Of a stretch of 64,000 nucleotides of DNA, positions 8,700 through 59,198 are shown in pieces (positions within the stretch are counted from its first letter, which is position 1; each line of letters begins with the position of its first letter). Under the pieces are notes generated by a model. It did no database searches. It was not told where the DNA came from and saw only the letters and a program-made list of their open reading frames with translations. Origin of the DNA: Pseudomonadota bacterium (lineage in GTDB: Bacteria; Pseudomonadota; Alphaproteobacteria; Acetobacterales; Acetobacteraceae); the NCBI GenBank assembly GCA_021845985.1, contig JAJZES010000038.1, positions 1 to 64,000 of the forward strand, read 5' to 3'. The position numbers and the translations under genes are program-made.

Positions 8700-8720
8700 G
8701 CGGTGCTGCGGGTCCGGGTT

Positions 8721-9896
8721 TCACTGCTGCGACGGCGCCGCCGAGCCCGGCGGCGGAATCGGCCGCAGCACTGCGTTATCGAGTTTGAACAATGGCGCCA
8801 GGACCGCTTTAGCGGCAGCGGCAGGCGGCCCTCCTGCCCCTGCCCCTGCCCCTGCCGGCGCCGGCACCTGCGCGCACTCATCCGTCTTCAGCTTGTCCGG
8901 GGTTCCGCCCGAGGTCGCGCTCCAGCAGGCGGCAATACCGGCCGGGATGTGCAGCACGACGCTTGCCGCGTCGTTGCCCGGTGTCGCGAAGATGCCGAGC
9001 GCCTGAAAATCGCTGTCGGCGTTGACTTTCACGACCAGCAGGAGAACGACGTCGGCGATCGTATTCAAACCTTTCTGATTAACCTCCGCCGTGAGCGTCT
9101 TCGACGGCTTGGCGATTGAGCCGATGATCTTGAAATCGTCCCCGTCTGCCGGCTTGTTCAGCACCTGCACGACCTGCTGCGTGGCGGCGCCCGGTGCGGC
9201 AGCCACGTTTCCGCCGCTGCCGCTCAGCGTCGCGGAGATCGTCGCCTCGGCAGAGGCCAGCGAGCAATAGCGGTGAATGATCCTGATCCGTGCCACGCTG
9301 GCGCCGTAGGAGAGCTTCGCCGGGTCCGTCGCCGCCACGTCGCGGACAAACTGATCCATGCGAACATAATACGTTTTCTGGATTGCATCGGCGAAATCAC
9401 TGATCGCCGCCTTGGCCAGCAGGTCGCCGTTGATCGCCCCCTTGGCACCCGAACTGATGGCGCTGGCGGCGCTGAGCGCATGCACGGTCGAGAGCGGCGT
9501 GAAGGCGGTGCCGAGCGCGGCGAAACCGCCGCCAAGAATATCGAGCACCGTGTTGCTGGTGCCCTCCCCCTTGGTCAGTTCATCGACAAATTGCCCACAT
9601 TTGTATTCAGATTCCTGAACAATATTGAAGATCTGGTTTTCAAGGTCTGCGTGATAGACAGAAAGTTTGGCGGCAAAGAGCTGATTATTCTCTTCTTTCT
9701 CCAAATTTTCGCGATCCGTCTGGAGTTTCCTGTCGTCTGCAGACAGTGCGCAGGTGTCGCCCCGGTCAGCGGGGTAGCGGGCGTCATCGACACAGAGCGG
9801 AGCCGCACCGACGACGACCTGACCGCCATGGCAAGCTGCCAGCGCCCCGGCAATCATTGCCAGAACAACGAGACGGATCAGCAGCGTTGCTGTCAT
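8721..9896 (-). CDS. Lipoprotein of unknown function
   Basis: No family recognised. The 391-aa product begins with a lipoprotein signal (MTATLLIRLVVLAMIAGALAAC), giving a lipobox LAAC with Cys22, so it should be anchored to a membrane. The mature part has a charged helical stretch (KLQTDRENLEKEENNQ), a Gly/Ala-rich central region (GGGFAALGTAF) and an Ala/Pro/Gly-rich tail encoded partly by a hexanucleotide repeat. ATG 9896 follows AGGAGG by 5 bases; that ribosome-binding site lies inside a perfect 30-bp palindrome. Bases 9590-9740 are clearly lower in GC than the surroundings, which suggests recent acquisition. It converges on the GT2 gene ending at 8699. Confidence 0.75.
   Translation of the reverse strand: MTATLLIRLVVLAMIAGALAACHGGQVVVGAAPLCVDDARYPADRGDTCALSADDRKLQTDRENLEKEENNQLFAAKLSVYHADLENQIFNIVQESEYKCGQFVDELTKGEGTSNTVLDILGGGFAALGTAFTPLSTVHALSAASAISSGAKGAINGDLLAKAAISDFADAIQKTYYVRMDQFVRDVAATDPAKLSYGASVARIRIIHRYCSLASAEATISATLSGSGGNVAAAPGAATQQVVQVLNKPADGDDFKIIGSIAKPSKTLTAEVNQKGLNTIADVVLLLVVKVNADSDFQALGIFATPGNDAASVVLHIPAGIAACWSATSGGTPDKLKTDECAQVPAPAGAGAGAGGPPAAAAKAVLAPLFKLDNAVLRPIPPPGSAAPSQQ
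8833..8856 (-). repeat. Four tandem copies of CCTGCC in the lipoprotein tail
   Basis: Four perfect CCTGCC hexamers run from 8833 to 8856 and encode an Ala/Gly tract near the C-terminus of the lipoprotein. The unit is a multiple of three, so copy-number change would alter tail length without a frameshift. Confidence 0.8.
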
Positions 9897-9939
9897 CGTC
9901 GCCTCCTGAGCAATATGTTGCTCAGGAGGCGGTGATGTC
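9892..9939. promoter_or_regulatory. Palindrome holding a Shine-Dalgarno on each strand
   Basis: GCCTCCTGAGCAA - TATG - TTGCTCAGGAGGC (9901-9930) is a perfect 13-bp inverted repeat with a 4-base loop, and weaker symmetry continues on both flanks. On the minus strand AGGAGG is followed after 5 bases by the lipoprotein ATG (9896). On the plus strand AGGAGG is followed after 5 bases by ATG 9935. In RNA the hairpin would bury the ribosome-binding site, so it could act as a translational switch or thermosensor. Confidence 0.6.
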
Positions 9940-10039
9940 GTCAAGGCGGAATGATCCGTCTGCCGCGACAAAGCGCGCCGCCCGCCGCCGCGTCACCCCG
10001 CCAGTGACGCCGTTTGCACCCCGCCCTCGATGCCGGTGA
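9935..10039 (+). CDS. Possible 34-aa Arg-rich peptide
   Basis: A short ORF (MSSRRNDPSAATKRAARRRV...) starts exactly 5 bases after a perfect AGGAGG that belongs to the 9901-9930 palindrome. It ends at TGA 10037-10039, antisense to the 3' end of the 88-aa gene. The ribosome-binding site is excellent, but the peptide is low-complexity, has no recognised family and could be only the mirror image of the lipoprotein start. Treat as tentative. Confidence 0.25.
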   Translation: MSSRRNDPSAATKRAARRRVTPPVTPFAPRPRCR

Positions 10040-10259
10040 CGTAGAGCATCTGGCCGGTTCCGGGCGTCGAGACCAGCACCATGTCGCCGGCCGCCAGCAT
10101 GTCGGCGGCCGGATCGAAGAAGCCCGGACGCGTCACCTCCTCCGCCGAGGCCGGCGGCACCAGCCGGCCGGACAGCGTCGGCACGTTGGCGCGGTAGTGC
10201 CAGAGCGTGAAACCCTGCGCATAGGCCAGTACCGACAGGTTGCGGATCGCAAACGCCAT
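9993..10259 (-). CDS. Phage-type hypothetical protein (88 aa)
   Basis: Starts MAFAIRNLSVLAYAQGFTLWHYRA and includes a PGFFDPAADMLAAGDMVLVS segment. The pattern of LSVLAYAxGFTLWHY followed by FDPAADMLxxGDM is one I associate with small proteins of prophage structural regions in alphaproteobacteria; its function is unknown. ATG 10259 has GAGGAGAG about 8 bases upstream. An intrinsic terminator lies 30-70 bp upstream in the leader. No other phage genes are visible, so this may be a domesticated orphan. Confidence 0.7.
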   Translation of the reverse strand: MAFAIRNLSVLAYAQGFTLWHYRANVPTLSGRLVPPASAEEVTRPGFFDPAADMLAAGDMVLVSTPGTGQMLYVTGIEGGVQTASLAG

Positions 10260-10287
10260 CGCTCGTCTCTCCTCGATGAAGGGCACA

Positions 10288-10330
10288 GCAAAAAGAAAAA
10301 CGGCCGTCCCAGGAGTGTGGGGCGGCCGTT
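10288..10330 (-). terminator. Intrinsic terminator or attenuator upstream of the 88-aa gene
   Basis: On the minus strand AACGGCCGCCCC - loop - GGGACGGCCGTT is followed at once by TTTCTTTTTG, giving a GC stem plus U-tract. It lies downstream of the 145-aa gene and upstream of the 88-aa gene, so it either ends the former's transcript or attenuates read-through into the latter. Confidence 0.75.
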
Positions 10331-10397
10331 GGCAAGTCTGGTCGTTAGGGAGGGAACGCCGCGGAGAGGACAAACCTCTCCCGACGACCAGCGATGT

Positions 10398-11659: not shown

Positions 11660-13075
11660 CTACGCCGCCGCCTGCCGCGGCTGCGGTGCTGCGAAGCGGG
11701 CGATCCCGAGCAGGTCGAGGAGGCTTGTCCCGCGCCGGTCCGGCGGCAAGGCGACGCCGTAATAGTCCAGCAGCGTCGGCATGACGTTAAGGATCGAGGT
11801 GCGCTCCGCATGCGTCCGGTGGGTTCCGGTCTTGAACCACAGCACGCTGTCGGGGTGATGGGCGCCGCTCTTGGTATGCGGGATTTCGTAGAACAGGTCG
11901 TGGAACGGCATTGCCTGGTTGCCGAACAGCACCTGCGCCTCTTGCGGCACCGCGCGGCGTACCGCATTGTCGAAGAACAGCGTATGAGCCGGTGCCTGCA
12001 CGAAGCCGATCACCGGCCGGCCCTCGCAGGTAAGCTGCGCCAGCCGCGCCCGTGCCGCCTCGGCCGCTGCCGCATCGGCGAACTCGGCAGAGAATTGCTG
12101 TGCCATGACCGGCAGCAGCCGCGTCGGCGTCACCCCGACCCAGTCGAGCAACTGCGCCGCGTTGCGCGGCCGGTAATAGCGGTTGCCGGCGTTCGGGTTG
12201 GGGTGCTGGCTCAGCGCCGTCGCCAGCACCAGCAACGCGCCCTGCCGCTCGAGGGCGAAGAAATCGCCGAGCAGCGCGTCCATCTGCTGGTAGCCATAGA
12301 GGATCGCGTCGCGATGCACCGGATCGTCAAGTCGGTCCGGCGGCAGGTCGAATGCCTCCGGCTGCAGCAGGTGGAACCATGCGTGCTGGAAATGCGCCGT
12401 GCTGTTGACGAAGAACGAGGCGAAGTCCGGCCGGCTGCGGCTCCAGTAGTGCCGGAACAGGTCGAATTGCAGCTTGTCCAGCAGCGCCGCCCGCTTCCAG
12501 GAGGTCTGCCGCGTCAGCGCCTCGCTGGTCACCTGCCGCAGCGCCGCCAGCACCGATTTGGCCCGCAGCCCGTGCGTCGTCACGTAGCGCAGGAAGGCGG
12601 CATACTCGGCCCGCCCGGCTGCGGCGCTGCCGTTGCTGTTCTCCTGCACCTTGCTCAGCACCACGCGCTGATAGGCGTCGAGTTCGGCGGGGTACGGCCG
12701 CTCGGTGTTGCACCAGGGGTCGGGCAGGTAGAATGAACCGGGGGCGGCGAAGCCCGGCGCGTTCATGCCGGCGAAGTTGCCCACCCGGTACCCGGCCGCC
12801 AGCAATGCGTGCCAGATGTCGAGATGTCCGGCCCGCGGTCCGTCGGTCAGGTTGAACACGCCATGCTGGTCGAACCCGAGACCGGTATGCAGCGAATACC
12901 ACTGGATCCACGGCTCCAGGCAGTTGGGATCGGTGGTTTCGGCAACCCCGGTGAATACCTGCGACGCGTCGTGGAAGCGCCGGAAATTCGGCAGCCGGCC
13001 CTCGGCCATCCAGCGCTGCAGCAGCGTCGGACTCAACTCGTTGAATTCGATGAAAATCAACCGCTGTCCCGGCAT
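11660..13075 (-). CDS. Alkaline-phosphatase/sulfatase-fold protein (nucleotide pyrophosphatase-like)
   Basis: A 471-aa protein starting MPGQRLIFIEFNELSPTLLQ. It looks like an alkaline-phosphatase superfamily member: LIFIEFNELSP at the N-terminus where metal-binding Asp normally sits, TDPNCLEPWIQWYSLHTGLG around the nucleophile position, DQHGVFNLTDGP, and a late PHTKSGAHHPDSVLWF block followed by ILNVMPTLLDYYGV. Some canonical metal ligands seem altered (FNEL in place of DGL/DGM), so activity is uncertain. No signal peptide is visible from ATG 13075; an extension to 13294 is low-complexity. It is divergent from the DUF1194 gene by about 110 bp. Confidence 0.65.
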   Translation of the reverse strand: MPGQRLIFIEFNELSPTLLQRWMAEGRLPNFRRFHDASQVFTGVAETTDPNCLEPWIQWYSLHTGLGFDQHGVFNLTDGPRAGHLDIWHALLAAGYRVGNFAGMNAPGFAAPGSFYLPDPWCNTERPYPAELDAYQRVVLSKVQENSNGSAAAGRAEYAAFLRYVTTHGLRAKSVLAALRQVTSEALTRQTSWKRAALLDKLQFDLFRHYWSRSRPDFASFFVNSTAHFQHAWFHLLQPEAFDLPPDRLDDPVHRDAILYGYQQMDALLGDFFALERQGALLVLATALSQHPNPNAGNRYYRPRNAAQLLDWVGVTPTRLLPVMAQQFSAEFADAAAAEAARARLAQLTCEGRPVIGFVQAPAHTLFFDNAVRRAVPQEAQVLFGNQAMPFHDLFYEIPHTKSGAHHPDSVLWFKTGTHRTHAERTSILNVMPTLLDYYGVALPPDRRGTSLLDLLGIARFAAPQPRQAAA

Positions 13076-13184
13076 GCCAGCCCATCCGTGTTTGATTACG
13101 CGATAGCACGGACGGACTGTCCGGGCCAACGCAATCATCACTTCGTGCGTGACATTCGCCGCGCCGATTTGCCAGACTGCGGCG

Positions 13185-13886
13185 ATGCGCGCGGTTGCCC
13201 TTCTGCTCGCCTGCCTCGCGGTGCCTGCCGCAGCCGGTGCTGCGGAGCCGGTTGATGTTGCGCTGGTACTGGTCAGCGACGTGTCGCGCAGCATCGACGA
13301 CAGCGAGTACCGCCTGCAGAAGCAGGGCTACCGTGCTGCCTTCACCAGCCCCGAGGTGACTGCGGCGATTGCCGGCGGCAGCGTCGGCGCCATCGCCGTC
13401 GCCTATGTCGAGTTCGCCTCGCCGGTCGATGTCCGCACCGTGCTTGACTGGCGCGTCATCCGCAGCGCCGCCGATGCCGGCCGCTTCGCCGCCGCGCTGG
13501 AGGCGGCCCCGCGCACCGCGCGGGGCCGCACCGCCATTGGCGAGGGCATCGCGCTGGCCACCGACGATCTTGCCTGCGCCCCCGTCGCCGCTGCCCGCCA
13601 GGTGATCGACGTGTGCGGCGACGGCACCAGCAATTCCGGCCGCGACGTCACCGCCGCACGCGATGCCGCGGTCGCCGCCGGCATCACCATCAACGGCCTG
13701 GCCATCATCAACGATCATCCGGTGTCCTGGGTCTTCGCCCATGTCCAGCCGCCGGGCGGCCTCGCCAAATGGTACCAGGACCACGTCACCGGCGGCCCCG
13801 GCAGCTTCGTCGTCGAGGTGCATGACTTCGCCGCCTTCGGCCGCGCCATCACCCGCAAACTGGTGGACGAGATCGCGGCGCGCTGA
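13185..13886 (+). CDS. DUF1194 family secreted protein (vWA-like)
   Basis: A 233-aa protein with a Sec signal (MRAVALLLACLAVPAAAGAA, cut before EPVD). The mature part has the MIDAS-like LVSDVSRSIDDSEY, GAIAVAYVEFAS, the segment GRTAIGEGI and VIDVCGDGTSNSG, which together match the DUF1194 family, a von Willebrand A-like fold of unknown function. It probably works in the periplasm binding a divalent metal and a partner protein. The ORF track uses GTG 13149, but ATG 13185 starts exactly at the signal peptide. No strong ribosome-binding site is visible. It stands alone between a divergent gene and the Hint gene 54 bp downstream. Confidence 0.85.
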   Translation: MRAVALLLACLAVPAAAGAAEPVDVALVLVSDVSRSIDDSEYRLQKQGYRAAFTSPEVTAAIAGGSVGAIAVAYVEFASPVDVRTVLDWRVIRSAADAGRFAAALEAAPRTARGRTAIGEGIALATDDLACAPVAAARQVIDVCGDGTSNSGRDVTAARDAAVAAGITINGLAIINDHPVSWVFAHVQPPGGLAKWYQDHVTGGPGSFVVEVHDFAAFGRAITRKLVDEIAAR

Positions 13887-59167: not shown

Positions 59168-59198
59168 TTGACGCTCGAAGAAATCTAACTCATGTTAG
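59168..59198 (+). promoter_or_regulatory. Promoter and operator candidate for the second Liv-type operon
   Basis: TTGACG (59168-59173) is a good -35, and CATGTT 17 bases later is a poor -10. The -10 region lies within the inverted repeat CTAAC-TCAT-GTTAG (59185-59198), a plausible repressor site. The surrounding AT-rich run (AGAATATTGG) is unusual for this window and lies 30-60 bp before the binding-protein start. Confidence 0.4.

Follow-up and report, generated by a model that had tools for sequence, protein, structure and literature searches.

A probable inverted copy of a lipoprotein gene start, and its possible role as a silencer of read-through translation, at a genome-specific junction in Acetobacteraceae

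The window analysed here is a stretch of 64,000 nt from a genome of the family Acetobacteraceae, in which a minus-strand gene for a predicted lipoprotein is preceded by a palindrome and, further upstream, by a conserved small gene (P0002) and a putative small RNA (Table 1). The lipoprotein, of 391 aa, has no match in Pfam. Its homologues are few: a profile made from three of the sequences matched 11 of 398 genomes, the window's own included. Proteins from two genomes of the family are about 30% identical to the lipoprotein, and eight further genomes gave weaker matches. No close relative was present in the genome contigs or viral contigs, or in plasmids and phages searched by tblastn. The conserved gene upstream is 72-83% identical in three of four genus mates examined and also in G031, which belongs to a related genus, and its named relatives come from Acetobacteraceae and Rhodospirillales metagenome bins. 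It belongs to no Pfam family, and the genes behind it vary among genus mates; in genus mate G001 they are genes that we take, from their sequence, to resemble trpBA and accD, the counterparts of which lie on another contig of the window's genome. The small RNA is preceded by a TTGACG promoter-like site that is partly conserved in relatives, in which the Rfam search for this RNA gave a single sub-threshold match, to another family.

Table 1. Features of the locus, with the leaders of IS481-family elements used for comparison
Feature	Position	Strand	Basis
Predicted lipoprotein gene, 391 aa, lipobox LAAC, ATG at 9896	8721..9896	-	translation
Segment specific to this genome, between blocks that are separate in genus mates	8701..9975		genus-mate comparison
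Whole imperfect palindrome	9871..9961		self match on the opposite strand and arm alignment
Perfect core, 14 pairs round TATG (9914-9917)	9900..9931		sequence and fold
Shine-Dalgarno AGGAGG of the lipoprotein gene, within the 3' arm	9902..9907	-	sequence and freeing cost
Promoter-like TTGACG (9944-9939), 18 nt, CAACAT (9920-9915)	9915..9944	-	consensus match
Right arm, putative inverted and decayed copy of the lipoprotein gene start region	9918..9961		arm alignment; frame broken by a 1-nt difference
34-codon ORF behind the plus-strand Shine-Dalgarno and ATG, probably not a gene	9935..10039	+	ORF list; no independent support
P0002, conserved 88-aa gene upstream of the palindrome, possible source of read-through	9993..10259	-	homologues
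suhB/mmgR-like small RNA with a strong terminator	10286..10376	-	Rfam RF00519, 27.6 bits, below the gathering score of 41
IS481-family leaders with a stem that hides the Shine-Dalgarno	L038:1491-1540, L191, L190, L199-L201, L205, L206		alignment

Comparison with the genus mates shows two blocks that lie apart in those genomes. The right block (P0002, a 145-aa gene, the suhB/mmgR-like RNA and an S24 peptidase gene) is found in genus mates, with which DNA similarity ends at 9973-9987, just past the outer end of the palindrome's right arm. The left block, made of glycosyltransferase genes up to about 8700, occurs in genus mates at other places. The stretch between them, from about 8700 to about 9975, holds nothing but the lipoprotein gene and the palindrome, and none of the four genus mates has an equivalent of it; none of 65 loci with relatives of P0002 has the palindrome or the lipoprotein. 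A junction specific to this genome is thus no more than about 12-26 nt away from the palindrome. Read-through into the lipoprotein gene is plausible, because at this junction the gene stands 97 nt behind the co-oriented P0002. In the right-hand part of the locus we also observed a 544-aa minus-strand gene without a Pfam match (11660-13294), between the S24 gene and 13149, which is missing at that place in G001.

A preliminary description of this DNA had reported a palindrome with a Shine-Dalgarno (SD) and a start codon on each strand, at a spacing of 5 bases, and this proved exact when the sequence was read again. The perfect core (9901-9930) consists of GCCTCCTGAGCAA (9901-9913), the tetranucleotide TATG and TTGCTCAGGAGGC (9918-9930), and C9900-G9931 adds a 14th pair, so that 14 perfect pairs enclose a TATG loop. 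On the minus strand, AGGAGG (9907-9902) is followed after 5 nt by ATG (9896-9894); on the plus strand, AGGAGG (9924-9929) is followed at the same distance by ATG (9935-9937). The 42 nt round the core are predicted to fold with -29.0 kcal/mol on the minus strand and -31.1 kcal/mol on the plus strand. The core sits inside a larger imperfect palindrome of 91 nt, a symmetry absent from the preliminary description: in a BLAST of the genome with 9860-9990 as query, 9871-9961 matched its own reverse complement with an E-value of 4.8e-13. The arms measure 43 nt (9871-9913) and 44 nt (9918-9961), with one length difference of 1 nt, and their alignment agrees at all of the outer 10 and all of the inner 14 positions, and at about 12 of the 20 between. 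They are homologous across the SD, the ATG and the first codons (about 10), and the left arm is the one that runs on into a gene.

This element is exceptional in its combination of features, not in its stem. Its self-complementarity score of 80 compares with a mean of 21 and a maximum of 50 among shuffled sequences (none of 3000 reached it), and it is the top-scoring tile of the window. Perfect arms of at least 14 bp were found 12 times in 782 kb of the same genome, a background taken from 0.78 of its 3.78 Mb, and the stem alone is therefore not rare. Yet only one of the 49 strongest quasi-palindromes in these 782 kb, namely the present element, carries an SD and a start codon on both strands, and divergent SD and ATG pairs with a stem longer than 7 bp numbered only two in the 1.5 Mb of DNA scanned. 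BLAST and pattern searches of its own genome found no copy beyond the locus itself; among 385 sampled genomes of the class the core palindrome matched its own genome only, viral contigs lacked it, and plasmids and phages held no DNA similar to it. In 60 relatives, the pattern GCCTCCT-N-AGGAGGC was mostly no commoner than its reversed control, with the exception of genus mate G003, where it belongs to the leader of an IS481 element. The palindrome is also missing from the homologues of the gene it precedes, a comparison that the preliminary description had proposed as a check: none of ten lipoprotein homologues (L058-L067) has a comparable palindrome, and in those with a recognisable lipoprotein start, stems near the start never exceed 7 bp.

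How did two SDs and two ATGs come to face each other? Since the ATGs mirror each other across position 9915.5, both pairs can be traced to a single event. We infer that the right arm was copied, in inverted orientation, from the SD, ATG and first codons of the lipoprotein gene and has since partly decayed, or that the copying went the other way. An inverted duplication of a leader, one of the two origins put forward earlier, is thus the best account of the arms, which are homologous over 43-44 nt. The other was a symmetric translational switch serving one gene on each strand, and the equal spacing of SD and ATG on both strands is in keeping with it. However, one inverted duplication accounts for everything, and the plus-strand frame has no independent support: it is only 34 codons long, runs into the 3' end of the gene at 9993-10259 on the minus strand and is therefore partly antisense to a conserved neighbour, and is out of frame with its source copy. 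The 1-nt change in the length of the right arm breaks the frame shared with the lipoprotein, and this shift argues against a conserved second coding start. Only on the minus strand is the start backed by a gene with homologues. The plus-strand SD and ATG are best explained as mirror images without a job, and we consider a two-way switch extremely improbable.

A mechanism for such a duplication has been proposed. Template switching is reported to create reverse-complement repeats with perfect hairpins, in which 4-nt loops are favoured, and to repair existing stems (PMC8794818). The present element shares with these hairpins a near-perfect inverted copy and a 4-nt loop, and the reverse-complement copy extends past the stem core (78% identity over 91 nt); the reported cases are RNA genes, whereas here it is the start region of an mRNA (PMC8794818). 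A template switch or fold-back repair might then have copied the gene start, inverted, at a rearrangement junction and left a hairpin as a by-product without regulatory role; either repeated correction by template switching or chance would have kept its centre perfect. Several observations favour this neutral account: 1) template switching is reported both to make and to repair perfect hairpins (PMC8794818); 2) the right arm ends about 12-26 nt from the junction; 3) the arms differ chiefly in their middle stretches and not in the core, the chance of a clean inner 14 given nine differences being 0.018; and 4) the palindrome was found in a single genome. Symmetric SD and ATG pairs would, if the hairpin is only a scar, be a possible product of one duplication, and a two-way switch would be unnecessary to explain them. 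The junction itself is possibly an assembly join, in what is apparently a metagenome bin, although the divergence between the arms speaks against a simple artefact of the inverted-chimera kind.

The consequences for translation can be predicted. In a 205-nt minus-strand read-through RNA that contains both arms, freeing AGGAGG is predicted to cost 15.5 kcal/mol at 37 C, in line with the earlier proposal that the ribosome-binding site (RBS) is locked in the minus transcript. The predicted cost falls to 7.5, 6.1 or 3.0 kcal/mol in RNAs that start in the loop or the 3' arm, depending on the start. When 180 nt of context are folded, the SD of the lipoprotein gene costs 20.1 kcal/mol, the highest value of 99 SD-preceded gene starts drawn from 782 kb (median 3.9, second highest 13.1 kcal/mol). 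In this folding model, such a leader would leave its gene almost silent, except where the message starts within the palindrome or the stem is opened. A hairpin without a role fits this poorly, as the least accessible SD of 99 is expected to be lost in a used gene unless transcription starts inside. Folding across temperatures, another of the proposed checks, makes a temperature switch unlikely: 11.2 kcal/mol are still needed at 60 C in the same 205-nt RNA, and no Rfam thermometer matched. Nor is this a simple terminator, as the preliminary description had already stated; the stem is followed by GACGATG or GGTGATG, with no T-run on either strand, and was not flagged by a terminator scan.

A message that starts inside the palindrome is suggested by the promoter-like site of Table 1, whose expected start lies near 9908, inside the 3' arm. 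Transcription from it would begin past the 5' arm and so leave the SD free. The site has 8 of 12 consensus matches and a weak -10 (3 of 6), and falls below the threshold of the promoter scan. Sites of the form TTGACR-N16-18-xAxxxT occur twice in 128 kb of strand, by criteria set after the site was seen; the other one, at 59168 on the plus strand, stands immediately ahead of an SD and ATG. The neighbouring small RNA also has a TTGACA or TTGACG hexamer at its putative promoter, kept in two of three aligned relatives. The same motifs could also be read at the level of DNA, as a bidirectional promoter centred on CAACATATTG or the site of a symmetric regulator, to which the RNA stem would be incidental. 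Each arm contains TTGxxG-N18-CAAYAT, pointing inwards, and bacteria commonly have bidirectional promoters that are pseudo-symmetric (PMC12825309). We nevertheless find this unlikely, as the plus-strand -35 is only TTGCTG and no supported gene lies on that side, while 30 perfect bases are long for an operator and have no second copy in the genome.

The stem might instead be opened by ribosomes. A GTG overlaps the stop codon of P0002 (GTGA) and begins a 24-codon frame (9996-9922, minus strand) that ends at a TGA (9924-9922) in the 5' arm; a ribosome terminating there would unfold the stem and couple the lipoprotein to the translation of P0002. The frame and the position of its stop are read directly from the sequence, but it lacks a clear SD, and the genus mates compared do not share the overlap, their stops reading ATAG, ATGA, CTGA and GTAG; such coupling seems quite improbable.

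The working model that we consider best, and hold tentatively, is a silencer of read-through translation that arose by inverted duplication. The start region of the lipoprotein gene would long ago have been duplicated, in inverted orientation, directly upstream of the gene; minus-strand transcripts arriving from P0002 would carry both arms, fold into the 14-bp stem and hide AGGAGG, and the lipoprotein would hardly be translated from them. Transcripts from TTGACG-N18-CAACAT would start inside the palindrome, lack the 5' arm and keep the SD open. In favour of this model stands the predicted contrast between 15.5 kcal/mol in read-through RNA and 7.5 to 3.0 kcal/mol after an internal start. Against it stand the finding of the palindrome in just one genome, the ten homologues of the lipoprotein that lack anything comparable, the -10 with 3 of 6 matches and the choice of the promoter criteria after the site had been seen. 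The neutral scar is a strong rival, close behind in probability. A more specific form of the silencer is rather unlikely, if attractive: a newly acquired ordinary gene may have been insulated in one mutational step, when a template switch copied its start upstream, inverted, and thereby silenced read-through translation. A translatable message would still come from the gene's own promoter, which would overlap the loop. If this is true, a control device of the transposon type would have arisen de novo at a chromosomal gene.

Devices of this type are best known from mobile elements. In IS10 and IS50, transcripts that enter from outside include both arms, and their fold covers the start signals; a promoter of the element within the repeat yields an RNA that escapes the fold; the present locus differs in that no transposon was found there and its promoter is only predicted. 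In IS200, one stem stops incoming transcripts and another hides the RBS, which keeps translation low (PMC3196728). The stem ahead of the start codon that hides the RBS is common to both, but here the gene encodes a lipoprotein, the 5' arm copies the gene's own start including its codons, and there is no companion terminator. The 5'-UTR of the ISPpu9 transposase likewise buries the RBS, and weakening its structure raised reporter activity 26-fold (PMC8450116). The RBS-burying structure is again shared; that of ISPpu9 is opened by an antisense RNA, whereas no such RNA is known for the present locus. As in these systems, a stable stem is predicted to include the SD in read-through RNA; control of a transposase is not part of the picture, the gene being a predicted lipoprotein with no element ends found. 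With no mobile element found at the locus, the palindrome would work like, rather than be, an RBS-hiding stem of the insertion-sequence type, and by this analogy the putative silencer reads as one of the kind seen in the transposase leaders of IS200 and IS481. Protection from read-through is otherwise known from transposase genes, and if the model is true, it would stand here before an ordinary, recently placed gene that received it by a single inverted copying event.

The IS481 comparison came from the second divergent SD and ATG pair of the 1.5-Mb scan, which lies in genus mate G003 and is an insertion-sequence leader, GCCTCCTTGGCTGGCTAGCCAGCCAAGGAGGCGTTGATGCCGTGGA. This leader occurs at two contig ends of G003 and in G262, another genome of the family, and in both genomes has GCCTCCTTGGCTGGC/GCCAGCCAAGGAGGC ahead of ATGCCGTGGA. 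That these leaders share the anatomy of an SD within a palindrome could suggest that the present element is itself a mobile-element end or a recombination site, be it an IS481 remnant, a REP or MITE, or an integron attC. This is largely refuted, and we regard it as very unlikely. An IS481 element or remnant was rejected, as the translation after either ATG is not IS481-like and no IS481 coding sequence is adjacent; a REP or MITE, as the element is single-copy in its own genome and not found in the 385 class genomes, viral contigs, plasmids or phages; and an attC, as neither strand of 9841-10000 contains GTTRRRY or RYYYAAC. The likeness to the IS481 leaders lies in the palindrome, the SD in its 3' arm and the ATG 4-5 nt later; the core sequence is another one, and the window element has neither an IS481 gene nor convincing similarity outside the stem.

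A literature search found no description of an SD-hiding stem in IS481-family leaders. Such palindromes before start codons may form a class that can be found by a simple search and tested across genomes. In Methylocystis, Rhizobium and Bradyrhizobium, related elements show a different stem sequence in the same place, and the two of these transposases that were checked have an integrase core and the IS481 leucine-zipper domain. When seven leaders were compared at nine pairs, all 63 cells paired, including those of two pairs in which both sides change; slid versions of the alignment gave only 51-61% pairing. As the sequences are few and related, this is moderate evidence that the IS481 leader stem has been kept through covarying changes, and it shows that, within the same bacterial group, mobile genes keep this anatomy.
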